Below are positions 4,996-49,145 of a stretch of 64,000 nt of DNA, piece after piece. The notes beneath the pieces were generated by a model. That model made no database searches. It was not told the origin of the DNA and was given only the letters and a program-made list of their open reading frames with translations. A program made the position numbers and the translations under genes. The first letter of the stretch is position 1, and the number at the start of each line of letters is the position of its first letter. Source of the stretch: Clostridiaceae bacterium BL-3 (GTDB lineage Bacteria > Bacillota > Clostridia > Clostridiales > Clostridiaceae); the NCBI GenBank assembly GCA_902809985.1, contig CADDXC010000001.1, positions 248,001 to 312,000 on the forward strand, read 5' to 3'.

Positions 4996-6726
4996 ATGAG
5001 TTGTTTGGAGATAATGCCCAAGCTGGGCCTTACAATGACAGAAGGAATGCTGGCAAAGTGGCATAAAAATGAGGGAGAGAAAGTTGAAAAGGGAGAAATT
5101 CTATTTGAAGTTGAAACGGATAAGCTTACGAACGAGATAGAGGCAAAAGAAAGCGGGGTACTTAGAAAAATACTGGTAGAAGAGGGAGAGACGGTTAAAT
5201 GCCTGACACCCGTTGCTGTAATAGCCGGTGAGAATGAAGATATTTCAGAGCTTTTGAAAGAGGCGGGAGCAGAGGGAAAAGATGAGGTAGAAGAAGCAGG
5301 AGAGCCGGAAGTCCGGGGCGATAAACGTGAGGCAGGCTCTAGAAATGTAGTTGTTATAGGTGGAGGCCCGGGAGGTTATATAGCTGCTATCCGTGCTGCA
5401 CAGCTGGGGAATAAAGTAACCCTTGTTGAAAATGCAGAACTTGGCGGAACCTGCCTCAATGTAGGATGTATACCTACAAAGACACTGCTCCATTCTGCAG
5501 AACTGTTCAGTGAAATCAAAGACAGCAGAAATCTGGGAATTGATGTGGGCGAAGTGAGCATAAACTGGAAAAACCTTCAGAAGAGAAGAAAGAGAATAAT
5601 AAAGAAACTTGTATCAGGAGTAAAAGGACTGCTTTCATATAACAAGGTAAATGTGATCAAGGGGTTTGCCAAAATGGAAACTAAAAATTCCATTGTAGTA
5701 ACCAGAGAAAATGGAGAAGCTGAAAAAATAAGTTTTGACGATGTCATAATTTCCACAGGTTCTCTTCCCTTTGCACCTCTTATACCCGGAATAGGCCTTG
5801 AAGGTGTAGTGGACAGCACCGGTGCACTGGATTTTGAATCTCTTCCGGAGACAATAGTGATTATAGGCGGCGGAGTAATAGGCATAGAATTTGCAAGCCT
5901 TTTCAGCTTACTTGGAAAGAAAGTGACCATTCTGGAAATGCTGCCGTTTATTTTACCGCCTATAGACAGGCAGATTTCAAATCTAATTGCCGATAAGCTG
6001 TCAAAAAGAGGAGTTACACTGAATACCGGATGCAAGGTAACTAAAATAGAAAAGGTAGAAAATGGACTGAAGGTTGATTTTACTAAAGGAGATGGCGTTT
6101 CAAGCGTGGAGGCCGAGAAAGTATTGGTAGCCATAGGAAGGCGTGCAAATACAGAGGGGCTTGATTTAGATAAAATTGGAGTAAAGGTGGAAAAGGGAAA
6201 TGTATGTGTGGATGATCATATGAGAACTAATATAGAAAATATATATGCCATAGGGGACTGTACAGGGAAAATAATGCTCGCCCATGTTGCTTCCGAACAG
6301 GGTGTGGTGGCTGCAGAAAATATATCGGGTCAGAATGCAAAGATGGATTACAAGACCGTGTCCTCCTGTGTATATACAAAACCTGAGATAGCTGCCGTAG
6401 GGTATACTGAAGAACAGGCCGAAGAAAAAGGAATTGGCTACAAAGTAGGTATTTTCCCCATGGGTGCCAATGGGAAAGCCATGATATCAAAGGAAACAGA
6501 CGGTATAATAAAAATACTGGCGGACAAAAAGACGGAAGAAATCCTTGGCGTTCACATCATGGCACCCAGGGCCACGGATCTCATAGGGGAAGCTGCACTT
6601 GCACTGAGGCTTGAAGCTACTGTAGACGAAATAATTACTACTGTGCACGCCCACCCGACTATAGGTGAAGCTTTCAAGGAAGCTGCACTGGCTTCCCAAA
6701 ACAGGACCCTTAATTCTGTAAATTAA
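4996..6726 (+). CDS. dihydrolipoamide dehydrogenase (E3) with N-terminal lipoyl domain
   Basis: Flavoprotein of 576 residues that reoxidises dihydrolipoyl groups with NAD+. An N-terminal lipoyl domain (about 1-78, Lys in VETDKLTNEI) is joined by a charged linker to a full E3: FAD motif GGGPGG, redox disulfide in GGTCLNVGCIPTK, NAD motif GGGVIG, FAD contact AIGDCTG, and the C-terminal His-Glu pair in HAHPTIGEAF. ATG 4996 follows GGGAGG; the frame is open further upstream inside the E2 gene, but that part is not homologous to anything expected. The DNA of its lipoyl domain is almost the same as that of the E2 gene just upstream. Lipoyl-E3 fusions are known in acetoin and pyruvate dehydrogenase systems of Gram-positives. 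Confidence 0.93.
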   Translation: MSCLEIMPKLGLTMTEGMLAKWHKNEGEKVEKGEILFEVETDKLTNEIEAKESGVLRKILVEEGETVKCLTPVAVIAGENEDISELLKEAGAEGKDEVEEAGEPEVRGDKREAGSRNVVVIGGGPGGYIAAIRAAQLGNKVTLVENAELGGTCLNVGCIPTKTLLHSAELFSEIKDSRNLGIDVGEVSINWKNLQKRRKRIIKKLVSGVKGLLSYNKVNVIKGFAKMETKNSIVVTRENGEAEKISFDDVIISTGSLPFAPLIPGIGLEGVVDSTGALDFESLPETIVIIGGGVIGIEFASLFSLLGKKVTILEMLPFILPPIDRQISNLIADKLSKRGVTLNTGCKVTKIEKVENGLKVDFTKGDGVSSVEAEKVLVAIGRRANTEGLDLDKIGVKVEKGNVCVDDHMRTNIENIYAIGDCTGKIMLAHVASEQGVVAAENISGQNAKMDYKTVSSCVYTKPEIAAVGYTEEQAEEKGIGYKVGIFPMGANGKAMISKETDGIIKILADKKTEEILGVHIMAPRATDLIGEAALALRLEATVDEIITTVHAHPTIGEAFKEAALASQNRTLNSVN

Positions 6727-7375: not shown

Positions 7376-7465
7376 TTTTGTGATGGCAGTGATATCCATG
7401 GTATAAAATGAAATTTTGAAATTGCTATTGTAATATGATATCAACTGTGATATTATCAAGAACGT

Positions 7466-7823
<358 letters not shown>

Positions 7824-7831
7824 GCCGCCTG

Positions 7832-10407: not shown

Positions 10408-10439
10408 AACTTATATTTTTTGTGAAGGGAGGAATTAAT

Positions 10440-11558
10440 TTGAAAAGTAATTTTCCCAATTTAGACTATATAATTAATGTAAATAATTTTCAAAAGATTC
10501 AAGATGCTATATCAAAAGTGGTGGAGACGTCCCTACTGACTGTTGATTATAAAGGGACGCCTGTTACGAAGCATAGTAATTGTAGTGATTTCTGTAAAAT
10601 CATAAGAACTAACTGTATTTACTCCAAATTGTGTGAAAAGTGTGATTCAAGAGGAGGGTTAGAAGCGGCCAGGCTGCAGCATCCTTATGTGTATATATGT
10701 CATATGGGACTATTGGTTTTTGCCATACCTGTAATTGTAGATGGTCAATATTTAGGGGCATTGGTGGGTGGTCAGATTTTAATTAAAGAGGATTGCCGAA
10801 AGAAAGATCTTGAACTGATATTTGAAGATAGATTCACAAAAGCAAAGTTGTTTGATAAAAAAGAAATTGAGGAAGCGTATAAAAAAATTCGAGTAGTTTC
10901 ACTGGATAGGATTAAATCAGTTGCCAATATGATATTTCTTATCAGTAACTATATAGTAGAGGAAGCCCTATTAAAAATAAAATTAAACGAGATGAATGAA
11001 GAAATATCAATGACAAGCAGAGATGAAAATGTAGAAGAAGTTTTACTAAAAACAAAATTAAATGAAATGAGTCAAATAATATCAATGACAAGCAGAGATG
11101 AAAATATGAAAAATGTAAACATAACACAGGGAAAAGAACCTGATAAAGTATATAGTTTAATTGATACTATTAATAAGGGAATTTATAACAAGAGCTTTGA
11201 AATAAAAGAACAGAAGAACAATATAATTTTGAGGCCAGCTTTAGAATACATTCAAAATAACTATTGTCATAGCATTAGTCTAGATGAAATGGCATCTTTA
11301 TGTAATATTAGTTCCAGCTATTTCAGCAAACTTTTAAAAAAAATGACCGGTGAGAATTTTTCCAACTATATAAGTAAATTGAGAATGAAAAAGGCAAAAG
11401 AGCTGCTTGAAACTTCTGATATTTCCATTAAAAATCTTTCTATAGATTTGGGCTTTGAAGATTGTGGATATTTTGTAAAAGTATTTAAAAAAATAGTGGG
11501 TGTTACACCCTCTTCGTACAGACTACAACATAAGTTTAAACACAATGAAGTACAATAA
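10440..11558 (+). CDS. PocR-domain transcriptional regulator with AraC-type DNA-binding domain
   Basis: Regulator of 372 residues. Residues about 5-165 match a PocR sensory domain: conserved Cys in SDFCKIIR and LCEKCD, an HPYVYICHMGL segment and VGGQIL. PocR domains bind small metabolites and often contain a Cys cluster. A linker (about 173-223) holds a 25-residue tandem repeat. Residues about 265-365 form an AraC/XylS double helix-turn-helix (YFSKLLKKMTGENFSNYIS, then GYFVKVFKKIVGVTPSSYR). Start: TTG 10440 after GGGAGG; the GTG at 10422 lies upstream of that site. It is divergent from nothing and sits just before two selenoprotein operons that share a duplicated promoter, so it is their probable activator. 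Confidence 0.88.
   Translation: MKSNFPNLDYIINVNNFQKIQDAISKVVETSLLTVDYKGTPVTKHSNCSDFCKIIRTNCIYSKLCEKCDSRGGLEAARLQHPYVYICHMGLLVFAIPVIVDGQYLGALVGGQILIKEDCRKKDLELIFEDRFTKAKLFDKKEIEEAYKKIRVVSLDRIKSVANMIFLISNYIVEEALLKIKLNEMNEEISMTSRDENVEEVLLKTKLNEMSQIISMTSRDENMKNVNITQGKEPDKVYSLIDTINKGIYNKSFEIKEQKNNIILRPALEYIQNNYCHSISLDEMASLCNISSSYFSKLLKKMTGENFSNYISKLRMKKAKELLETSDISIKNLSIDLGFEDCGYFVKVFKKIVGVTPSSYRLQHKFKHNEVQ
10957..11106 (+). repeat. 75-bp tandem repeat inside the regulator gene
   Basis: Two consecutive 75-base units encode 25-residue copies ending in ISMTSRDEN. The 25 bases around the ISMTSRDE segment are the same in both copies. The repeat lengthens the linker between sensor and DNA-binding domains and keeps the frame. 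Confidence 0.85.
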
Positions 11559-11580
11559 ATAGATGCATTTAGTACAAAAA

Positions 11581-11675
11581 AATACAATTGCTGAAAAAAA
11601 GTAAACGTTTTATTGCATCAAGATTACAGAATAATTCAATGAATATTGTCTGCCAATTTACTATAATTTAAATAT
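11581..11675 (+). promoter_or_regulatory. duplicated promoter/operator, copy 1 (selenoprotein operon 1)
   Basis: About 95 bases are nearly the same as 15548-15642 (about 12 differences by eye). Shared elements include GTAAACGTTTTATT with the palindrome AAACGTTT, the segment ATTACAGAATA, TTCAATGAATATT, and a TATAAT -10 box at 11662-11667 in copy 1. No good -35 box is placed 17 bases upstream, which suits activation by an AraC-type protein. The regulator gene ends only 22 bases upstream. Confidence 0.65.
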
Positions 11676-11728
11676 AGACTAACTGATAAGTAAAGGGAAT
11701 TTCTAATTTGTCAAGTTAATGAGACAGA

Positions 11729-11759
11729 GTATAAAGTCAGAGGCTTTATACCCATTTTT
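11729..11759 (+). terminator. leader hairpin, possible attenuator
   Basis: An 8-bp stem GTATAAAG/CTTTATAC is followed by CCATTTTTGTTTT, in the transcribed leader about 60 bases after the -10 box and before the trxB remnant. It may be an attenuator, or a terminator that was once further from the start of trxB. Confidence 0.45.
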
Positions 11760-11793
11760 GTTTTAAAAGGAAAGTCATCGATGGCAGAAAAAT

Positions 11794-12390
11794 TCATTAG
11801 GTGCAAATCCAAGGCTGTCAGGTTTTAAAAATGAGAAAGAATTGAGAGGAAGAGGAATTTCCTATTGTGCAACCTGTGATGCGGATTTCTTTACAGACCT
11901 GGATGTAGCAGTAGTGGGAGGTGGAGATTCAGCCATTACAGAAGCTATTTACCTTACAAAATTTGCAGAGAGCGTTACAGTCATACACAGGAGAGATGCC
12001 CTTAGGGCGACAAAATCTCTGCAGGACAGGGCTTTTCACAATCCTAAAATAAAATTTATATGGAATTCCATTGTGGAAGAAGCTGTAGGGGATGAAATAT
12101 TGGAAGGATTACTTATAAAGAACAAGATTACAGGTGAAACCAGGAATTTGAAAGTAGACGGATGCTTTGTATTTGTAGGATATGAACCTATATCACAGCT
12201 GTTTCAGGGGAAGGTAACTATGGATGAAAAAGGTTATATTGTGACAGATGAGGATATGAGAACTAATATTTCAGGAGTATTTGCCGCAGGTGATATAAGA
12301 AAAAAATCCTTAAGACAAGTAGTAACTGCAGCAGCTGATGGTGCTATAGCAGCAACTACTGCTGAGCACTATTTAGAATCATTGAAATAA
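11794..12390 (+). pseudogene. trxB: 5'-truncated thioredoxin reductase (NADPH-domain and C-terminal part)
   Basis: Thioredoxin reductase is normally about 310 residues. Here only about 198 remain. Homology starts in frame at SLGANPRLSGFKNEKELRG, then continues with the redox centre CATCDADFF, the NADPH motif GGGDSA, HRRD, and the C-terminal AGDIRKKSLRQVVTA. The N-terminal FAD-binding part (about 110 residues with GxGxxG) is missing, and the frame meets a stop at 11764. The only in-frame start is a TTG at 11842 without ribosome site. The GRGISYCATC form is typical of thioredoxin reductases in glycine reductase operons. The protein could not bind FAD normally, so I call it a pseudogene, though a fragment could be translated. 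Confidence 0.85.
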
Positions 12391-12443
12391 TAAATACTGA
12401 GCTACCTTATTAAGGCAGTTATAAAAATAGGAGGGTTAATAAA

Positions 12444-12776
12444 ATGATAGAATTAAACAAGAAAAACTGGGATGCTGAAATTACTGAATATGTTGAAAAG
12501 CCAGTGTTTGTTGACTTTTGGGGCGATAAGTGTGAAATTTGTAAACAATTAATGCCTGGAGTACATGGCTTGGAAAAAGTATATGGTGACAAAATAAAAT
12601 TTGCCAGCCTTAATATAAGCAGTGCAAGGAGGTTAGCAATTTCTCAAAAAGTTCTAGGACTGCCGACGATGATTATATATAAAAACGGTGAAAAAATGGA
12701 CACTATAACTGCAGATAAAATAAATACTCTTGATGATGTGAAGAGCTTTATAAAATCTACATATGATAAGCTTTAA
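12444..12776 (+). CDS. trxA: thioredoxin of the glycine-reductase type
   Basis: Thioredoxin fold of 110 residues, which would reduce the GrdA/GrdB selenoproteins. The active site reads FWGDKCEICKQLMP, so the dithiol motif is CEIC rather than the usual CGPC. The cis-Pro loop GLPTMIIYKNGE is intact. Thioredoxins in glycine reductase operons are known to have unusual active sites (for example GCVPC), so the change fits a dedicated partner. An AGGAGGG ribosome site precedes ATG 12444. It lies between the trxB remnant and grdA. With trxB broken, reduction must come from another reductase in the cell. Confidence 0.88.
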   Translation: MIELNKKNWDAEITEYVEKPVFVDFWGDKCEICKQLMPGVHGLEKVYGDKIKFASLNISSARRLAISQKVLGLPTMIIYKNGEKMDTITADKINTLDDVKSFIKSTYDKL

Positions 12777-12821
12777 AATTAAATAAAGTTCAAAATAAAT
12801 ATTAAAAAAGGAAGAGATAAT

Positions 12822-13292
12822 ATGTTAATAGGTAAAAAGGTAATTGCGATAGGAGATAGGGACGGTATACCTGGCCAGGCTATTGAGGTCTGTGCAAAGT
12901 CAGCCGGAGCAGAGGTTATATTTGCTTCTACAGAATGTTTCGTTTGAACGGCTGCGGGAGCTATGGATCTGGAGATCCAACAGAGGGTAAAAGATTTGAC
13001 GGAAAAATACGGTGCAGAAAATATAGTTGTAATTTTAGGTGGAGCAGAGGCAGAAGCGTCAGGTCTTTCTGCAGAAACGGTAAGTGCGGGAGATCCGACT
13101 TTTGCTGGACCGCTTGCAGGAGTAGCACTTGGACTGGCTGTCTATCATATTGTAGAACCTGAAATAAAGGAAGAATGTGATGCTGCAGTTTATGATGAAC
13201 AGTGCAGCATGATGGAAATGGTTCTTGATGTAGAAGATATTATAAGTGAGGTAAACACTATAAGAGACCAGTATTCAAAATATAATAAATAA
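12822..13292 (+). CDS. grdA: glycine/sarcosine/betaine reductase selenoprotein A (TGA = Sec)
   Basis: GrdA carries the carboxymethyl-selenoether between the substrate-specific component and component C. The reading frame is interrupted by one TGA (12945-12947, codon 42) in the motif [13 protein letters not shown], which is the family's selenocysteine site; reading through gives 156 residues, the normal length. N-terminus [15 protein letters not shown] and the rest ([29 protein letters not shown]) fit the family closely. ATG 12822 follows GGAAGAG. A hairpin at 12965-12978 is placed as expected for a bacterial SECIS element. It needs SelA-D, which are not in this window. Confidence 0.97.
12945..12978 (+). 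promoter_or_regulatory. selenocysteine codon and candidate bSECIS of grdA
   Basis: TGA at 12945-12947; the stem GGATC (12965-12969)/GATCC (12974-12978) with loop TGGA begins 17 bases after it. Bacterial SECIS elements lie inside the coding region at about this distance and bind SelB through the apical loop. Confidence 0.7.
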
Positions 13293-13356
13293 TATAAATA
13301 ATTTCATTAAAAAGGAAAAATTTTTGGTAGAAAATAGTTTTGATATTAGAATAAAG

Positions 13357-13388
13357 AATAATAGCATGCAGGAATGCATGCTATTATT
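13357..13388 (+). promoter_or_regulatory. strong intercistronic hairpin between grdA and grdC
   Basis: A perfect 14-bp stem AATAATAGCATGCA/TGCATGCTATTATT with the loop GGAA. There is no T-run after it, so it may protect or process the mRNA, or act as a weak terminator that makes grdA more abundant than grdC and grdD. Confidence 0.6.
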
Positions 13389-13410
13389 AAAATAAATAGG
13401 AGGTTTTAAA

Positions 13411-14283
13411 ATGAATTTTCCCGTTGTTAAGAGAGCTTCTTATGTTTTAGTTAATACGCCGGATATGGTGGTACATAATGGCACTACCCAAACTTTGGAG
13501 AGGAAGACAAATCCGGATTCGGATTATCTGAAGCAGATAAAAAACCACTTGAGATCATTTGAAGATGTAGTCAGTTATGCGCCAAATCAAACTTATATAG
13601 GAAACATGGCTCCAGAAGAATTGAGTGAAAGAAAAAGACCCTGGTATAATGAAAAAGTTGATGGCTCATCGAGGTTTGGCAAGTTTGGAGAGATAATGTG
13701 TCAGGATGAGTTTTATGGATTGTTGAAGATATCCGATGTATTTGATCTGGTGATCTTGGAAAAATCCTTTACGGAGGCTGTAAAAGAGAGCTTTAAGAGG
13801 CATCCAATCTTAAAAGATAGAATTGATGACTTGAAAGAGGGAGAGAGCATAGAAAATATTAAAAGGCTTGTAAATGATGGCATAGCAGAGGGCCTTTACA
13901 GGGATGACAAACTTGTGGGATGCGTGAAAAGGGCCCACGAATTTGATCCGAATCTGTCGGCACATACCATGATTGAAAACTTGTCAGTAAAGGCATCGGG
14001 CGTTCTGGCACTGATGTATCTTGTAAAAGACTCTGGATTGGATGTAAGTCAAATTGATTATCTAATAGAACATATAATGAGTGGAAAATTGAACAATTTT
14101 ATGGTAATAGGTAAGGGGAGTTTATTTCTGGGAAGAATGACAAATCTGTTTGATGGAGTATCTATACTTGTAGAAAAGAACGATGGCGGGAAAGAGGAGA
14201 ATACTGAAGTATCCAAAGATGAGGTAAAGAAGATCATAGCACGGGAGATAAGAAAATTTGCACAGCAGTTGATGGATGATTAG
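13411..14283 (+). CDS. grdC: glycine reductase component C subunit beta with large internal deletion
   Basis: GrdC, with GrdD, releases the acetyl group from GrdA as acetyl phosphate; it has a ketoacyl-synthase-III/thiolase-like fold and about 510 residues. Here an intact frame codes for only 290. Residues 1-220 match the N-terminal part (GTTQTLERKTNPDS, SYAPNQTYIGNMAPEE, RAHEFD, SAHTMIENL, ASGVLALMYL) and 221-265 match the far C-terminal part (MVIGKGSLFLGRMTNLFDG). The segment between, about 210-220 residues with the acyl-accepting Cys region, is absent; the junction is near 14070. ATG 13411 follows AGGAGG. It is probably inactive in acetyl transfer, although it could still bind GrdD. Confidence 0.88.
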   Translation: MNFPVVKRASYVLVNTPDMVVHNGTTQTLERKTNPDSDYLKQIKNHLRSFEDVVSYAPNQTYIGNMAPEELSERKRPWYNEKVDGSSRFGKFGEIMCQDEFYGLLKISDVFDLVILEKSFTEAVKESFKRHPILKDRIDDLKEGESIENIKRLVNDGIAEGLYRDDKLVGCVKRAHEFDPNLSAHTMIENLSVKASGVLALMYLVKDSGLDVSQIDYLIEHIMSGKLNNFMVIGKGSLFLGRMTNLFDGVSILVEKNDGGKEENTEVSKDEVKKIIAREIRKFAQQLMDD

Positions 14284-14309
14284 AATTTTTGATACAGAGG
14301 AGGGGAATT

Positions 14310-15455
14310 ATGGACAGGACAAAAAAATTGATTGCGGAAGCATTTGAGGATATAGCTGACGGTATAGAAAAGGGAAGCTTTAAAAGGAGGCCTAGAATAG
14401 GACTTACAGTTTATGGCTCGGAACATGGAGCAGAGGAGATGATAAAAGCTGCACAGTTGGCGGGGAGTAAATACGGTGATTTTGATATAGTGCTCATAGG
14501 GCCGAAAGTTGACTGTGGGTTTGAATCTGTAGAAGTAAGCAGTGCAGAAGAAGGTCATAAGAAAATGGTAAGTCTTCTTGAGGAAAAGAAGATAGATGGG
14601 TGTGTGACACAGCATTTTGATTTTCCTATAGGGGTATCGACTGTAGGTAGGATGGCTGCACCGGGAAGCGGCAGAAATATGATACTTTCAACCACTACGG
14701 GTACTATGGCCACGAATAGGGTGGAGAGTATGGTCAAAAACTCCATAGCCGGCATTGCAGTTGCAAAGTCCATTGGTATAGATAATCCAACCGTGGGGGT
14801 TTTGAATGTAGATGGAGCCAGGGGTACACAGAGGGCGCTTGTAGAACTGCAGAACAGGGGATATGGTATTGATTTTGCTCAATCTCTCAGGAAAAATGGA
14901 GAAGTACTGATGAGGGGAAATGACCTCCTTTCAGGTACCCCGGATGTCATGGTTTGTGATTCACTGACCGGAAATCTGCTCATAAAGATTTTTGCAGCCT
15001 ATACTACCGGAGGAAATTATGAGACTCTGGGATATGGATACGGTCCGGGAATAGGGGAAAATTATGATAAACTGATAAATATAGTATCTAGGGCTTCGGG
15101 GGCACCTCTTATCTGTGAAGCACTTAAATACTGTGCTGTGTGTGCTGAAGGAAAAGTACTGAGGACGGCGAAGAATGAATTTCAAAAGGCAGAGGATGCG
15201 GGGCTGGAGGAGATATTGAAAAAGGATAGGCCGTCGAAAGCTGAAGAGGTGGAGGTAAAGGTGCCTCCCAGGGAAGTTGTGACCTATGCAATACCGGGGA
15301 TAGATATACTGGAACTGGACAATGCCTGCAGGGTATTATGGGAAAAAGGTATATATTCTGAAAACGGAATGGGCTGTACAGGGCCTGTGATTCTGGTAAG
15401 TTCTCAAAAGGGTGAAAAAGCCGTAAAAATTTTAAAGGAAGCAGGATATAAATAA
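14310..15455 (+). CDS. grdD: glycine reductase component C subunit alpha
   Basis: GrdD, 381 residues, a PlsX-like phosphate acyltransferase that forms acetyl phosphate in component C. The family pattern is complete: N-terminal DRTKKLIAEAFEDIADGI, central MILSTTTGTMATNRVE and GYGYGPGIGENYDK, and the C-terminal Cys motif GMGCTGPVILVS proposed to carry the acyl group. It starts at ATG 14310 after GAGGAGGGG, 26 bases after grdC. A hairpin at the stop codon ends the operon. Unlike its neighbour grdC it shows no deletion. Confidence 0.95.
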   Translation: MDRTKKLIAEAFEDIADGIEKGSFKRRPRIGLTVYGSEHGAEEMIKAAQLAGSKYGDFDIVLIGPKVDCGFESVEVSSAEEGHKKMVSLLEEKKIDGCVTQHFDFPIGVSTVGRMAAPGSGRNMILSTTTGTMATNRVESMVKNSIAGIAVAKSIGIDNPTVGVLNVDGARGTQRALVELQNRGYGIDFAQSLRKNGEVLMRGNDLLSGTPDVMVCDSLTGNLLIKIFAAYTTGGNYETLGYGYGPGIGENYDKLINIVSRASGAPLICEALKYCAVCAEGKVLRTAKNEFQKAEDAGLEEILKKDRPSKAEEVEVKVPPREVVTYAIPGIDILELDNACRVLWEKGIYSENGMGCTGPVILVSSQKGEKAVKILKEAGYK

Positions 15456-15482
15456 GAGGGATAAAACAACCCTCTTATTTAT
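15451..15482 (+). terminator. terminator of selenoprotein operon 1
   Basis: Stem AATAAGAGGG/CCCTCTTATT overlaps the grdD stop codon and is followed by TTATC, only a short T tract. It separates grdD from the promoter of the second operon. Confidence 0.7.
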
Positions 15483-15547
15483 CTTCAAAGATTCCGTATT
15501 TATCATGACAATAAATTACAAGGAAATGAGTGCAACTAATATAAAAA

Positions 15548-15642
15548 AGTACAATTTCTAAAAAAAAGTAAACGTTTTATTACATTAACATTACAGAATA
15601 GTTCAATGAATATTATCTGCTGGTTTACTATAATTTAATTAT
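15548..15642 (+). promoter_or_regulatory. duplicated promoter/operator, copy 2 (selenoprotein operon 2)
   Basis: Second copy of the 95-base element at 11581. It keeps GTAAACGTTTTATT, ATTACAGAATA, TTCAATGAATATT and the TATAAT box (15629-15634) at the same spacing. It lies about 75 bases before the GrdE-like start. Confidence 0.65.
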
Positions 15643-15714
15643 AAACTTGACTCAAGTTATAAATATTTTTATAACAATTCGTGACTTGAATATAGGGAAA
15701 GGATGGTTATAGTT

Positions 15715-16989
15715 ATGAGTAAACGTCTGCAAATCGATTATATCGATGTTAAAAAGGTTCAATTCGGAAATAAATCCGAGTTGGTTAACGGTGTGTTAAC
15801 AGTTAATAAGGAAGAGCTTTATAACCTGATTAATAATGACTTGTTTGCATGGATGAATATCCAATTGGTATACCCTGGTGAGAGCTGCAGAATGCTGGCA
15901 GTGCATGACATCATGCAGCCGCGCTGTAAAAAAGAACATCCGGAAGAATCTTATCCGGGAATTTGGGGAAAACTGGCACCTGCAGGTGAAGGGGAAACGG
16001 TAGCACTTAGAGGTGTAGTTGTTTCAGACATTTATTATGCAAAGTGTAATGTTAAATATTATATGGATATGGGCGGTCCATGTGCAAAATACACTCATTT
16101 TTCAAGACATTATCATGTCGTTATCGATGCTGCACCAGCTGAGGGTGTCAGTGATTTAAGTTATGCGGAAGCGTTAAAACATGCTTCACTGACGGCAAAT
16201 GTATATTTGGCTAAGCTTGGTGTTGATCTAAAGCCAGATGAAAAAGAAGTCTTTGAGCTCGGACCAGTTGGCCCAGGAAAGGATGGCAAGCCTCTACCTA
16301 AAGTGGCATACTTTGTTACCCATATGGCCTCACATGATACTTGGAATATATTGTACTATGGGCAAAGCGCGCTTAATTTTCTCCCAATCATAGTTCAGCC
16401 TACCGAAGTGCTTGATGGAGCTTTCCTATGGCGATATTGGGAATGTAATTATTACCTGCAAAACGAGCTGTATATCAGGGAACTTATGAAGCGCCACGGC
16501 AGGGATCTTGAATTTGTGGGAGTTGTTTTCGCAAATAACGTTATGAAAATTGACGGTAAAAATACCATGGGCATGATTGGAGCGACATTATGCCGTGACA
16601 CATTAAAAGCGGATTGTGTTGTGATCAATAAGTCAGGTATGGGACATTGCCAGCTTGATTTGGCGCTGGCTTTTAACTGGGCAGAAAAAATGGGTATGCC
16701 CTGTGTAATGAATCTCTCGGCTGTGTCCAATGATCGCCCGGGTGACATGCTGGTGATCTCAGATCCTAAAGTTGATGCTGTTGTCAACAGCGGGCGTAAT
16801 TATACGCTTCATCACCCGAGAGTTAAACGACTGATTGGGGAGAATGCCGGAGTTCCTAGTCTAGCTGGTATTGATCCTTGGGGACCTTTCGATCATACCA
16901 CCAATTTTGCATATCAGGGAATATGGTCCCAGCTGGGAGATTGCTATGTGACTACGGATTCAAATATTCCATGGAAAGAAGAGGTGTAA
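15715..16989 (+). CDS. GrdE/GrdG/GrdI-like substrate-binding component (pyruvoyl proprotein)
   Basis: Proprotein of 424 residues related to the substrate-specific component B of glycine (GrdE), sarcosine (GrdG) and betaine (GrdI) reductases. Family features: PGESCRMLAVHDIMQPR near residue 60, PTEVLDGAF, and RELMKRHGRDLEFVGVV. In GrdE the proprotein cleaves itself before a Cys to form a pyruvoyl group; the equivalent here is probably Cys244 in RYWECNYYLQNE. The residues around it differ from GrdE (NIAC-type context), so the substrate may not be glycine. ATG 15715 is taken because AAAGGATGG precedes it; ATG 15703 lies within that site. The Sec gene follows after 3 bases. Confidence 0.88.
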   Translation: MSKRLQIDYIDVKKVQFGNKSELVNGVLTVNKEELYNLINNDLFAWMNIQLVYPGESCRMLAVHDIMQPRCKKEHPEESYPGIWGKLAPAGEGETVALRGVVVSDIYYAKCNVKYYMDMGGPCAKYTHFSRHYHVVIDAAPAEGVSDLSYAEALKHASLTANVYLAKLGVDLKPDEKEVFELGPVGPGKDGKPLPKVAYFVTHMASHDTWNILYYGQSALNFLPIIVQPTEVLDGAFLWRYWECNYYLQNELYIRELMKRHGRDLEFVGVVFANNVMKIDGKNTMGMIGATLCRDTLKADCVVINKSGMGHCQLDLALAFNWAEKMGMPCVMNLSAVSNDRPGDMLVISDPKVDAVVNSGRNYTLHHPRVKRLIGENAGVPSLAGIDPWGPFDHTTNFAYQGIWSQLGDCYVTTDSNIPWKEEV

Positions 16990-16992
16990 ATC

Positions 16993-18312
16993 ATGGCTAA
17001 AAAGTATCGAATAGTTCATTATATAAACCAGTTTTATGGAGGATTTGGTGGAGAAGATACTGCAGGTATGGATATAGTTGTTAAAGAAGAGCCTGTGGGG
17101 CCAGGTTTAGCAATGAAAAATGCGTTTGGTGACAGAGCGGAAATTGTGGCTACGATTATTTGTGGGGACAATCATATTGCGGAAAACTTGGAAACAGTAG
17201 TACCTGAGGTGGTTAAAATTGTAAAAAAATACAATCCAGATATGTTCATTGCCGGTCCTGGATTCAATGCTGGCAGATATGGCATGGCCTGTGGTGCGAC
17301 AACAGCAGCAGTTGTTGAAACACTGAAAATTCCGGGCGTTACAGCATTATATGCTGAAAATCCTGGAACTGATATGTATAAAGATCGCTGTTATATTCTC
17401 AAAACAGAAAACAATGCCAGGAAGATGAGAGAAGTTATAAAAAAAATAGTTGATTTTTCCCTTCGATTGGTGTCAGGAGAAGCAATTGGGGATGGTAAGA
17501 AGGAAGATTACCATGGAAGCGGTCCGGCCATTGAAATCGATTATTCAATACCAGCACCAAAACGAGCCATTAACATGCTTTTAGCTAAGTATTACAATAA
17601 GCCTTATAGAACGGAAGTGGTTATGCCCAATCATGAAAAAATTCCGGTGCCGGTACTTGATAAACCCTTGTCAGAAGCAAAAATTGCACTTGTTACTGAT
17701 GGAGGCCTAGTACCAAAGGGAAACCCTGATAATATGGTTGTTACCAATTCGACTTGTTTTAAATATTACTTAATTGAAGGAAAGGACAAACTAAGTCCTG
17801 AGGATTATGAAGTAAGACATCAAGGTTATAATAATGCCTTTGTTCTTGATGATCCCAACCGTCTTGTGCCAGTTGATGCAATGAGGACGCTTGAAAAAGA
17901 AGGTGTCATCGGTTCTTTATTTGATTCATATTTTACAACTGCAGGTGTGATGACTCCTATGGAGAAAGGTAAGAAATTTGGTGAAGGTATTGCCAAAATA
18001 ATGAAAGAACACAAGGTTGATGCGGCTATATTGACGTCCACCTGAGGAACTAGTTCTCGCTGTGGTGCAGTGATGACAAAAGAAATCGAACGTGCTGGTG
18101 TTCCTATTGTTCAAGTGACGAACTTGACAAAAATCGCCGAAGGTATAGGTTCTAACAGAATTCTTCGTGGAAACAGCGTCTTGCATGTTTTTGGCGATCC
18201 TTCGCTGCCAAAGAAAAATGAAGTGGCCTATCGTAAAAATGCTGTCAAGAAAGCTTTGAAAATGCTTGAAGAAGTGCCGGAAGAGGGTAAATCGGTAATC
18301 GAGGAAATTTAA
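16993..18312 (+). CDS. GrdB/GrdF/GrdH-like selenoprotein (TGA = Sec)
   Basis: Sec-containing subunit of the substrate-specific component, 439 residues when TGA 18043-18045 (codon 351) is read as Sec. Known GrdB proteins carry Sec at about residue 350. Family features: HYINQFYGGFGGEDTAG at the start, GPGFNAGRYGMACG, DDPNRLVPVDAMRTLEKEG, and the Sec site LTSTUGTSSRCGAVMTKEI. Known members have UGTCTRCGA, so the first Cys of UxxCxxC is Ser here. Downstream residues stay in frame and remain homologous (EIERAGVPIVQ), so the TGA is not a pseudogene stop. It would bind the amine substrate with the pyruvoyl partner and pass the carboxymethyl group to GrdA. Confidence 0.93.
18043..18073 (+). promoter_or_regulatory. 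selenocysteine codon and candidate bSECIS of the GrdB-like gene
   Basis: TGA 18043-18045, then stem TCGCTG (18057-18062)/CAGTGA (18068-18073) with one G-U pair and loop TGGTG, starting 11 bases after the codon. A GAACTAGTTC palindrome lies between them and could compete. Confidence 0.6.
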
Positions 18313-18373
18313 GCTGGAAATAGCCAATGTGATAATATGACAATATGTTAAAATTAAAAGGAGGTTATTCTTT

Positions 18374-19549
18374 ATGGTTAAGAATAATAAATATAGTGTT
18401 AATACAGCTGAGCCAATATCTGTGAATGTTATAGATCCTTCTACAAAAAAAATATGGCCGGCTGAATTATGCCATGATTCAGATGGGTTTTTCCTGAAGC
18501 AATCCTCTGATCAAGCCAAGGATGCAGAGTTATTTTTGAGTCCTGGCTGGATTGATTTACATGCTCATGTTTACTATGGCGTAGGAGCCATATCCATACC
18601 TCCGGATTCAATTGGATTTGATACCGGTGTTCATTTTATAGCTGATGCTGGAAGTTCAGGTGAAGCTACCATTACTGGATTGAGAAAATATGTTGCACCT
18701 GCCTTTAATACTCCATTTAAAGCCTGGTTAAATATATGTTCTACTGGTTTGGCACAAATACCTGAAGCTACAGATATTTCCGCAATGGATGTAGCAAAAA
18801 CGGTGAGAGCGGCCAATGCAAATCGTCCCTTTGTCTGCGGCATCAAAATCAGAGCTGAAAAAACCACCGTCGGTGCAATGGGTATACAGCCGGTAAAACT
18901 TGCAGCTAAAGCTGCACGAGAAACGGGAATGCGCCTTATGGTACACATTGGGCTGCCTATGCCGTGCATCGAGGATATACTGGATATTTTGGCTCCAGGT
19001 GACGTAATATCTCATGTTTATCACGGGAAATTAAATTCACCCTGGACGTCTGAGGGCAAACCGATTCCTGCTATGGAAAGAGCTTTAAAGCGCGGTGTTC
19101 TTATGGATGTAGCCCATGGAATAGGCAGTTTTAGTTTTGAAGTTGCAAAGAGGGCAATAGCTGCAGGATATCCTCCGTTTACTATTAGCTCTGATGCTCA
19201 TGTTCTAGGCATAAATGGTCCTGTTTATGATCTTCCGACTACAATGACTAAATTGTGTGCTGCGGGCATGGATCTTGTGGATGTAATAGAAGCGGTGACA
19301 GCATCACCTGCTAAAATATTACAGCTGGGTGATTGGTGCAATTTGAAGGGAAGACTGCATAATGCAACATTGTTTAAGCTTAGTAAATCTGCTCCTGCAT
19401 CCAGAAAATTTATTGATTGTGTTGGCAAAGAAATTTTCCCTGAGAAATATATTATTCCTACAGCTATAATTAATAAAGAAGAAATGAAATGGCTGGATTA
19501 TCCTCTTAAAAATGTAAAGGTAGATGTTGATCCTGCAGTACACATATAA
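18374..19549 (+). CDS. metal-dependent amidohydrolase (dihydroorotase-like, COG3964 type)
   Basis: Amidohydrolase-superfamily enzyme of 391 residues. The binuclear metal site is complete: H63 and H65 (DLHAH), K158 (probably carboxylated, GIKIR), H191 (VHIG), H214 (ISHVYH) and D274 (SSDAH). The family resembles predicted amidohydrolases of the EF_0837/AHA_3915 type, whose substrates are poorly known. No signal peptide, so cytoplasmic. AAGGAGG precedes ATG 18374. The gene is 61 bases after the GrdB-like gene and before the operon terminator, so it is co-transcribed with a reductase. I infer that it hydrolyses an N-acyl, carbamoyl or cyclic amide to give the amine the reductase uses. Confidence 0.88.
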   Translation: MVKNNKYSVNTAEPISVNVIDPSTKKIWPAELCHDSDGFFLKQSSDQAKDAELFLSPGWIDLHAHVYYGVGAISIPPDSIGFDTGVHFIADAGSSGEATITGLRKYVAPAFNTPFKAWLNICSTGLAQIPEATDISAMDVAKTVRAANANRPFVCGIKIRAEKTTVGAMGIQPVKLAAKAARETGMRLMVHIGLPMPCIEDILDILAPGDVISHVYHGKLNSPWTSEGKPIPAMERALKRGVLMDVAHGIGSFSFEVAKRAIAAGYPPFTISSDAHVLGINGPVYDLPTTMTKLCAAGMDLVDVIEAVTASPAKILQLGDWCNLKGRLHNATLFKLSKSAPASRKFIDCVGKEIFPEKYIIPTAIINKEEMKWLDYPLKNVKVDVDPAVHI

Positions 19550-24178: not shown

Positions 24179-24340
24179 TCAATTATAATATTCGATATGT
24201 AACGAACTATGTAGGCGGTATAAATTATATAGTGTTTATATGTAAAGAATATTATCAAACTTATTTTATTAAAATATATTGACTTATTATATATATGATG
24301 TTAATATAATTACGTAAATTTAATAAATTCTTTTGAAAAA

Positions 24341-24411
24341 CATTCGTATAATCTTGATATAATATGGTTCAAGAGTTTCTACCAGAAGGCCAAAACTTCT
24401 GACTATGAGTG
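24341..24411 (+). promoter_or_regulatory. guanine-class purine riboswitch (permease)
   Basis: Purine aptamer: P1 CATTCGTA/TATGAGTG (8 bp), P2 with loop GATATAATATGGT, junction AGTTTCTACC, P3 AGAAG/CTTCT, and 3' junction GACTATG. The specificity base (position 74) is C at 24403, which means guanine or hypoxanthine. It precedes a purine permease and a terminator, so it should switch the gene off when purines are plentiful. Confidence 0.93.
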
Positions 24412-24439
24412 GATTCCGGGAAGAAAATATTTCAAGTAT

Positions 24440-27647: not shown

Positions 27648-27863
27648 TTTTTGATTACCTCCTTATTTTTCACAGCTTTTAGAATTAATTGCCGTGGTTT
27701 TGTTTACCTGTGAATAATGTTCGATATGATATGAACATTATTCACATAAATGATTATACAATTTCAAATTAAACGAATATTAAAAGATAAATTGAAATTA
27801 ATATATTGAATTATATAATTTACTATGTTAATATAATTATATCAGAAACAAGTACGAATGGAG

Positions 27864-27933
27864 CATCCATATAATCCTAATAATCTGGTTTAGGAGTTTC
27901 TACAGGAAACCGTAAATTTCCCGTCTATGGTTG
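27864..27933 (+). promoter_or_regulatory. guanine-class purine riboswitch (pur operon)
   Basis: Aptamer with P1 CCATA/TATGG, P2 TCCTAA/TTAGGA around loop TAATCTGGT, junction GTTTCTACA, P3 GGAAA/TTTCC with loop CCGTAAA, and 3' junction GTCTATGG. The specificity base is C at 27925 (guanine type). The base before it is T (27924), where most aptamers have A, and the J2/3 end is ACA rather than ACC, a covarying-looking variation. It controls the pur operon. Confidence 0.9.
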
Positions 27934-27994
27934 AAGTGATTTAAAGCTGCGTGTTTTTTGTGCTGAATTTTAAATTGGTTTGCCGATTTTGGGG

Positions 27995-48955: not shown

Positions 48956-49039
48956 AACTGCGGATATGTACATGAAATGTTTACATTTTTATAAACAAGT
49001 GATATTATAATAATAATGTAGCAAATTTAATATTGTCTG

Positions 49040-49127
49040 TAGTGTCAGGGGTGCCGGTACGGCTGAGAAAAGTGAAAACTTTAACCCTTTGAACCTGATT
49101 CGGGCAGCGCCGACGTAGGGAAACCGC
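49040..49127 (+). promoter_or_regulatory. TPP riboswitch (THI element)
   Basis: Conserved TPP aptamer parts in order: AGGGGTGCC, GGCTGAGA, ACCCTTTGAACCTGAT, and GTAGGGAAA at the 3' side. It precedes a terminator hairpin and the transporter operon, so it should switch the operon off when thiamine pyrophosphate is bound. Confidence 0.95.
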
Positions 49128-49145
49128 TTTGTAATTTGTATCCTG

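Follow-up and report, generated by a model that had tools for sequence, protein, structure and literature searches.

A fluoroacetate reductase-type FarE/FarB pair beside a PocR regulator, an amidohydrolase gene and an apparent partial copy of the glycine reductase locus in a Clostridiaceae genome

We have analysed a stretch of 64,000 nucleotides from Clostridiaceae bacterium BL-3 (assembly GCA_902809985.1, contig CADDXC010000001.1, positions 248,001 to 312,000), called the window here, and in particular the selenoprotein reductase locus at window positions 10440–19549. Judged by its sequence, the GrdE/GrdB-like pair of this locus is FarE/FarB, of the fluoroacetate reductase type within the glycine reductase superfamily. 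The window FarE scores 850.6 bits with NF053623, "fluoroacetate reductase subunit FarE" (cut-off 675), but just 187.9 bits with the sarcosine GrdG model (cut-off 780), and selB is found in the genome. By analogy with glycine reductase and with the published fluoroacetate reductase (PMC10838667), farE–farB probably encodes the substrate-specific protein B, of Far type, of a GrdA-dependent reductase that would convert 2-substituted acetates to acetyl phosphate. A preliminary description of the locus had proposed a new glycine-reductase-like system; FarEB has already been published (PMC10838667) and is covered by an NCBIfam model, so the reductase family is not new.

In Cloacibacillus porcorum MFA1, farACEB is raised about 5,000-fold with fluoroacetate, grdA is also up, fluoride and acetate are formed, and FarE lacks the pyruvoyl cysteines (PMC10838667); the farACEB account is repeated in PMC12366334. 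C. porcorum, C. evryensis and Pyramidobacter piscolens all degrade fluoroacetate, more slowly in C. evryensis, which has no radical SAM protein, and in P. piscolens, which has neither FarA nor the radical SAM protein (PMC10838667). One locus of our set, L083, has the published gene order (MFS–radical SAM–farE–farB) and a FarE that falls in the group of the window FarE; we infer that it is from C. porcorum.

No report of far outside the Synergistota was found in the literature searched. Here, FarEB occurs in Clostridium, in many Lachnospiraceae and in a metagenome-assembled genome (MAG) assigned to the Myxococcota. Comparison of the window FarE with genome contigs gave 18 loci at 72–96% identity, mainly from Lachnospiraceae or its genera (Catonella among them), the other hosts being Clostridium, Faecousia, Pyramidobacter and the Myxococcota-assigned MAG. 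These 18, nine regions from genome searches and the window make up the 28 far loci to which the counts below refer. Most of the 18 were classed by that identity to the window FarE and not by an individual family score. The set includes two pairs with identical FarE (L041/L042 and L051/L080) and L086, whose FarE at 668.8 bits lies just below the cut-off of 675; L045 and L086 end inside farB. FarE above the cut-off was present in 2 of 292 relatives (the window genome and a congener, the source of record L038), in 7 of 185 genomes from the phylum to which the Pyramidobacter record belongs, in 3 of 397 sampled from the Faecalimonas family (two of them found before) and in 2 of 391 sampled from the class, again the two seen among the relatives. 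GrdA was found in 16 of the 18 contig host genomes, both misses being Dorea MAGs. No spread on plasmids was seen: the six plasmid records matching FarE all do so at below 60% identity, and the first is a sarcosine GrdG at 34%.

Two sequence features mark the pair. In FarE, a Trp and a 6-residue deletion replace the Cys-bearing pyruvoyl segment of GrdE and GrdG, and the Trp occupies that column in all 28 loci. In FarB, the selenocysteine (Sec, U) motif reads UxxS in all 25 readable sequences (L038 is interrupted, L045 and L086 are cut), so that the middle Cys of UxxCxxC is absent; the last Cys is kept in 19, including the window, and is Gly in the other six (L047, L053, L054, L081, L082 and L083). 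All 28 FarE fall together in a tree of 59 E proteins (ultrafast bootstrap 100, Shimodaira–Hasegawa-like approximate likelihood ratio test (SH-aLRT) 99), with the window FarE and that of L038 as sisters (100/100). The group lies apart from glycine-type GrdE, from the sarcosine GrdG of Peptoclostridium acidaminophilum and from the genome's own betaine-type E protein. Its support is 98/96 once the P. acidaminophilum GrdG and a deeper relative, L092, are added, where the deeper joins are unsure because of long branches; the position of the window within FarE is not the same in the two trees.

The B proteins agree. In a quick tree of 48 rows (SH-aLRT only, arbitrary root), FarB separates from the seven others, namely the genome's own GrdB, sarcosine GrdF, the betaine-type B protein, three copies from G176 and L092, with support of 97 on the non-Far side and 86 on the FarB side. 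L092 has a B protein that falls with the non-Far ones (97) and an E protein sister to FarE (100/99). The betaine type is represented in the trees by one reference, the genome's own long-branched L064, which lies across well-supported branches from Far. On tree and motif together we reject glycine, sarcosine or betaine specificity. The preliminary description was thus right to set the pair apart from those three systems: it groups away from the available references and lies inside neither the GrdF/G nor the GrdH/I clade. Purifying selection is evident between the window and L038, with ratios of nonsynonymous to synonymous substitution (dN/dS) of 0.06 for farE, 0.11 for farB, 0.11 for the amidohydrolase and 0.17 for PocR. 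We also considered that a Cys-rich metal site might stand in for the FarE pyruvoyl group: C58, C71, C301 and C312 are invariant in a 17-row alignment. The idea was dropped because C312 is replaced by Ala in L084–L086 and C58 by Thr in L086, and all four are missing from L092.

The locus runs in the order PocR/AraC regulator; promoter repeat 1; trxB'–trxA–grdA(Sec)–ΔgrdC–grdD; promoter repeat 2; farE–farB(Sec)–amidohydrolase, with the following features.

10440–11558, + strand: PocR-domain/AraC-type regulator (PF10114 155.7 bits, HTH_18 69.9 bits); TTG start, with a GTG at 10422 possible
11557–11680, + strand: promoter-region repeat, copy 1 (84% identical to 15524–15647)
11842–12390, + strand: trxB fragment lacking its N-terminal part, beginning at residue 136 of 318
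12444–12776, + strand: trxA, thioredoxin (NF047697 131.8 bits, slightly below the cut-off of 140; PF00085 65.3 bits)
12822–13292, + strand: grdA, selenoprotein A, in-frame UGA at 12945–12947 (NF040748 271 bits, cut-off 130)
13411–14283, + strand: grdC that has lost 663 bp internally, in frame, at a 6-bp repeat (14065–14070), retaining profile positions 1–218 and 438–477 of 477
14310–15455, + strand: grdD (NF040747 554 bits, cut-off 350)
15451–15479, + strand: possible terminator at the end of the grd block, a 10-bp perfect stem read by eye and not returned by the hairpin scan because its 9-nt loop exceeds the limit of 8
15524–15647, + strand: promoter-region repeat, copy 2, ahead of farE
15715–16989, + strand: farE, GrdE-like, without the pyruvoyl segment (NF053623, score as above)
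16993–18312, + strand: farB, GrdB-like selenoprotein, UGA at 18043–18045, motif STUGTSSRCG (TIGR01918 419.6 bits, cut-off 65.45)
18046–18083, + strand: weak hairpin resembling a selenocysteine insertion sequence, directly 3' of the farB UGA (RF01990 23 bits, gathering score 38, E 0.29; fold z −1.25)
18374–19549, + strand: metal-dependent amidohydrolase (PDB 2ogj E 2.5e-64, 8wzy 1.4e-52; NF006689 308.8 bits, cut-off 371)

Profile scans thus recovered every gene that had been named before (the PocR/AraC regulator, grdA with its UGA, the deleted grdC, grdD, the GrdE-like gene, the GrdB-like gene with one UGA and the amidohydrolase) and added the 5'-truncated trxB and trxA ahead of grdA. The second promoter copy was also borne out, the two being 84% identical over 124 nt and 3,967 nt apart. 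Among the nine locus proteins scanned there is, as described, no glycine-type GrdB above the cut-off and no GrdX (the genome was not searched for grdX); a complete glycine-type set (grdE, grdA, grdB, grdC, grdD) lies elsewhere in the genome. Within the linker of the PocR regulator we noted a 75-bp in-frame tandem duplication (84%, 10956–11105). At 11729–11751, after promoter copy 1 and ahead of the trxB fragment, lies a terminator-like hairpin that could act as an attenuator of the grd block; there are six such sites, against 5.8 expected by shuffling. Further away, the window contains two purine riboswitches, a thiamine pyrophosphate riboswitch and RNase P RNA (24324–24425, 27847–27947, 49037–49138 and 7465–7828); one of the purine riboswitches precedes a xanthine/uracil-family permease.

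The trxB'–trxA–grdA–ΔgrdC–grdD block does not look like a dedicated core of the pathway. Most of it looks instead like a partial copy of the glycine reductase locus that the genome has elsewhere, L063 (C1:1722000-1738000; order trxB, trxA, grdE, grdA, grdB, grdC, grdD). At the DNA level, trxB' (11799–12378) is 98.3% identical to L063 over 580 bp, grdA 93.3% over 478, the first part of grdC 99.85% over 682, and the end of grdC with grdD 99.2% over 1,435; grdE and grdB of L063 are skipped. The encoded GrdA and GrdD are 92% and 99.2% identical to those of L063, and TrxA is 73% identical in amino acids without any nucleotide match. Both trxA and grdA would therefore be older or of other origin. 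Compared with L063, grdC has lost exactly 663 bp, in frame and at a 6-bp repeat; intact GrdC above the cut-off is encoded at two other loci, and a second complete C/D set lies at the betaine-type L064. In the sister L038 the block is missing at this place, and the PocR gene (its product 83% identical to that of the window) runs directly into farE with a single promoter copy, whose left flank is like window copy 1 and whose right flank is like copy 2. The two window copies differ by 16%, close to the divergence between window and L038 (85–87% identity). This would fit an old block that L038 has lost and that later underwent gene conversion from L063; a more recent insertion is also conceivable. 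Elsewhere in the same genome are two D-proline-reductase-like PrdB genes, named by eye (L004 and L005, G000:C1:1494265 and 2856988), one with Sec and the other with Cys at the active site.

The amidohydrolase begins 61 nt after farB. For its label, COG3964-type, we follow the preliminary description; with curated NCBIfam models it stays below the cut-offs (NF006689 308.8 of 371 and TIGR03583 249.3 of 432 bits), and none of its four NCBIfam matches is a hydantoinase or carbamoylase. Homology to 2ogj, a protein with acetyl-mandelate activity, covers the metal-binding barrel (aligned 49–324). This type adjoins farB in only two of the 28 loci, the window and L038 (two others end inside farB), and so is not kept beside the pair outside the sister genome. 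Other hydrolases do flank far elsewhere: an M20D amidohydrolase above the TIGR01891 cut-off lies directly 3' of farB in seven loci, and L082 has another amidohydrolase between its MFS gene and farE. The window enzyme gave only a short HxH-region match with that of L082 and no match of note with M20D. The earlier proposal that the amidohydrolase releases the reductase substrate is plausible in its general form, since several kinds of hydrolase adjoin far, but this particular enzyme is seen only in the window and its sister; for N-methylhydantoin or N-carbamoyl-sarcosine as the source nothing was found in support. A control for hydrolase enrichment over 29 loci gave 11 matches within 5 kb of farEB and one weak M20D match farther away, a hint only, and biased because the four reference proteins came from near far; with self-hits removed, the near matches are one COG3964-type (the sister) and six M20D, all from one subtree.

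Transporters and regulators also recur beside far. An LctP-family permease (above the Pfam cut-off, slightly under that of NCBIfam) is found in 14 of the 28 loci, always within 2.2 kb of farEB, and an MFS protein nearest to lactate/oxalate-formate transporters, under the cut-off, in six. L084 has a TRAP permease, a serine hydrolase and a LarA lactate racemase (above the cut-off) ahead of farE, and in L049 LarA lies 5 kb away. FarC-like radical SAM proteins, at 35–100% identity, occur in four (L040, L053, L083 and L087). A TetR regulator nearest to DhaS (120.1 bits, cut-off 129) is present in 23 loci, and 22 carry, beside such a regulator, a half-size FarB paralogue, shortB, which spans FarB residues from about 162–182 to 436–439 and in all 22 has its Sec position taken by Cys (CGTS(T/S)RC in 21, CATSTRC in L048). 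In L081 (4409–5986, − strand) shortB and the TetR regulator form a single fused frame of 525 residues. DhaS–DhaQ is a precedent in which a TetR activator partners an inactive paralogue of the enzyme of its pathway, and by this analogy shortB would sense the Far substrate, making the TetR/half-FarB pair a candidate enzyme-derived sensor. PocR occurs in just two loci, and the window locus has PocR in place of shortB. Genome G425, from the Synergistota search, has two far loci (L080 and L081), one with a UxxSxxC FarB and LctP, the other with UxxSxxG and MFS. L066 (2726–13672) has three consecutive FarE/FarB-like pairs (35%/43–45%), well under the FarE cut-off and with GPH-type symporter genes between them, which would form another uncharacterised protein-B group. 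The deeper Far-like pair of L092 (7319–13199; FarE 48%, FarB 64%) lies downstream of a Na+/solute symporter and is accompanied by a divergent CN_hydrolase.

In the mechanism that we propose by analogy, the FarB selenolate would attack a small X-CH2-COO− substrate at C2, FarEB binding this substrate without a pyruvoyl Schiff base. X would be expelled (fluoride in the published case) and the carboxymethyl group handed to the selenocysteine of GrdA, from which GrdC and GrdD, with GrdC supplied by the genome's intact loci, would form acetyl phosphate and hence ATP. The hydrolase 3' of farB would most likely release the substrate from an ester or amide conjugate; the several hydrolase types and the LctP and MFS permeases beside far make such release of a small carboxylate plausible. 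PocR is presumed to activate both promoters, and the grdA/grdC/grdD block would be a partly broken housekeeping copy under a second far promoter, perhaps providing extra GrdA and GrdD.

Several observations weigh against reading the window pair as such a reductase. Window positions 5001–27000 gave no match to FarA-type MFS, LctP, FarC-type radical SAM or TRAP references, no monocarboxylate permease is present among the ten flanking genes scanned (4840–26673), and the best FarC match anywhere in the genome is 31%. The window FarB is of the UxxSxxC subtype, whereas L083, with the published farACEB layout, is UxxSxxG, and the window therefore lies outside the best-tested subtype. In the sister MAG, farB (L038, 11279–12598) is interrupted at codon 139 by an in-frame TAA, in addition to its Sec UGA. 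The NCBIfam model may stretch the FarE name beyond the one tested lineage, and its name may mislabel far genes such as those found here as defluorinases. We know of no activity of a clostridial FarEB. Finally, the far paper itself questions whether the enzyme prefers fluoroacetate (PMC10838667).

What the everyday substrate would be is a separate matter, and the rearranged operon, different regulator and extra hydrolase suggest that it may be other than fluoroacetate. The native substrate could be a common natural 2-substituted acetate, the simplest being glycolate, which is isosteric with fluoroacetate; it would be freed by hydrolases and imported by lactate/glycolate-type permeases, fluoroacetate being a look-alike. 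This we regard as doubtful though worth stating, and glycolate itself is a guess from the permeases, the racemase and the isostere argument. It is favoured by the LctP and MFS permeases (14 and 6 loci), by LarA with TRAP in L084 and LarA near L049, by the hydrolases flanking farEB (seven M20D, two COG3964-type and one other amidohydrolase, with CN_hydrolase in L092) and by hosts such as Faecalimonas, Catonella and Hespellia, which live in gut, mouth and manure. Against it, hydroxide is a poor leaving group, the LctP and MFS matches are under curated NCBIfam cut-offs, the window locus has no such permease nearby, fluoroacetate induces far very strongly (PMC10838667), and glycolate is not found as a term in the main text of either far paper (PMC10838667, PMC12366334). 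Carboxymethyllysine, considered because of a link with Cloacibacillus, was dropped as no usable study was found in the literature searched. An extended scheme, about which we are likewise sceptical, would have FarEB serve gut and other anaerobes in reducing a natural 2-substituted acetate (possibly glycolate), cut from conjugates by hydrolases recruited several times, to acetyl phosphate, with defluorination a side activity, sensing in most hosts by a TetR regulator paired with or fused to the enzyme's half-copy (Sec to Cys), and PocR and a grd copy captured under the far promoter in the window lineage. With neighbour genes hinting at another everyday substrate, the purpose of FarEB becomes directly testable.

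The far paper itself proposes that the preferred substrate may be an amine, for which a formylglycine in the STUG motif could provide the carbonyl (PMC10838667), which supports a substrate other than fluoroacetate; the window FarB retains STUG, and the amidohydrolase 61 nt after farB is kept in the sister under purifying selection. A sarcosine-like amine, released by the amidohydrolase from a cyclic or carbamoyl amide such as N-methylhydantoin or N-carbamoyl-sarcosine, is nevertheless quite improbable in our view. The loss of the pyruvoyl segment in all 28 FarE makes an amine less likely, FarE does not group with GrdG, the radical SAM protein that might make formylglycine is absent here, and the hydrolase is closest to 2ogj and 8wzy with no hydantoinase or carbamoylase among its NCBIfam matches. 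The truncated trxB, the deleted grdC and the TAA in the sister farB could mean that the locus is decaying and out of use; this is unlikely, as the window farE, farB and hydrolase are open with dN/dS of 0.06–0.11, and GrdC is intact at two other loci. Least credible is an assembly artefact in which a repeat of the glycine reductase locus was joined wrongly to give the grd block. Stretches 98–99.9% identical to L063 could be so explained, but grdA is at just 93%, trxA is without a nucleotide match, the grdC deletion keeps the frame exactly, and promoter copies 16% apart are not expected from a simple mis-join.

Compared with known systems, the window pair is closest to fluoroacetate reductase farACEB of C. 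porcorum MFA1 (PMC10838667), sharing a FarE above the cut-off without the pyruvoyl segment, Sec in FarB and GrdA in the genome. It differs in its PocR regulator, COG3964-type hydrolase, duplicated grd block, UxxSxxC FarB and Clostridium host, and in having neither a FarA-type transporter nor a FarC-type radical SAM protein near the locus. Protein B of the genome's own glycine reductase (L063) shares the Sec-containing GrdB family (46% to FarB) and the use of GrdA, GrdC and GrdD, but its GrdE has the pyruvoyl Cys segment, is 32% identical to FarE and falls in a separate group. Sarcosine reductase GrdG/GrdF of P. acidaminophilum (L093, as annotated) has the same protein-B architecture, with a GrdG that retains the pyruvoyl segment, is 34% identical to FarE and also groups separately. 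The betaine-type GrdI/GrdH of the genome (L064, beside a betaine BCCT transporter) likewise has no Cys in the pyruvoyl columns, but the 6-residue deletion at this place is a feature of FarE that sets the two apart; it is 27% and 40% identical to the Far pair and forms a separate long branch. Lastly, the amidohydrolase is homologous over most of its length to PDB 2ogj, 8wzy and 2ics, with the HxH motif and the barrel Asp aligned by eye; its scores lie below the curated NCBIfam cut-offs.

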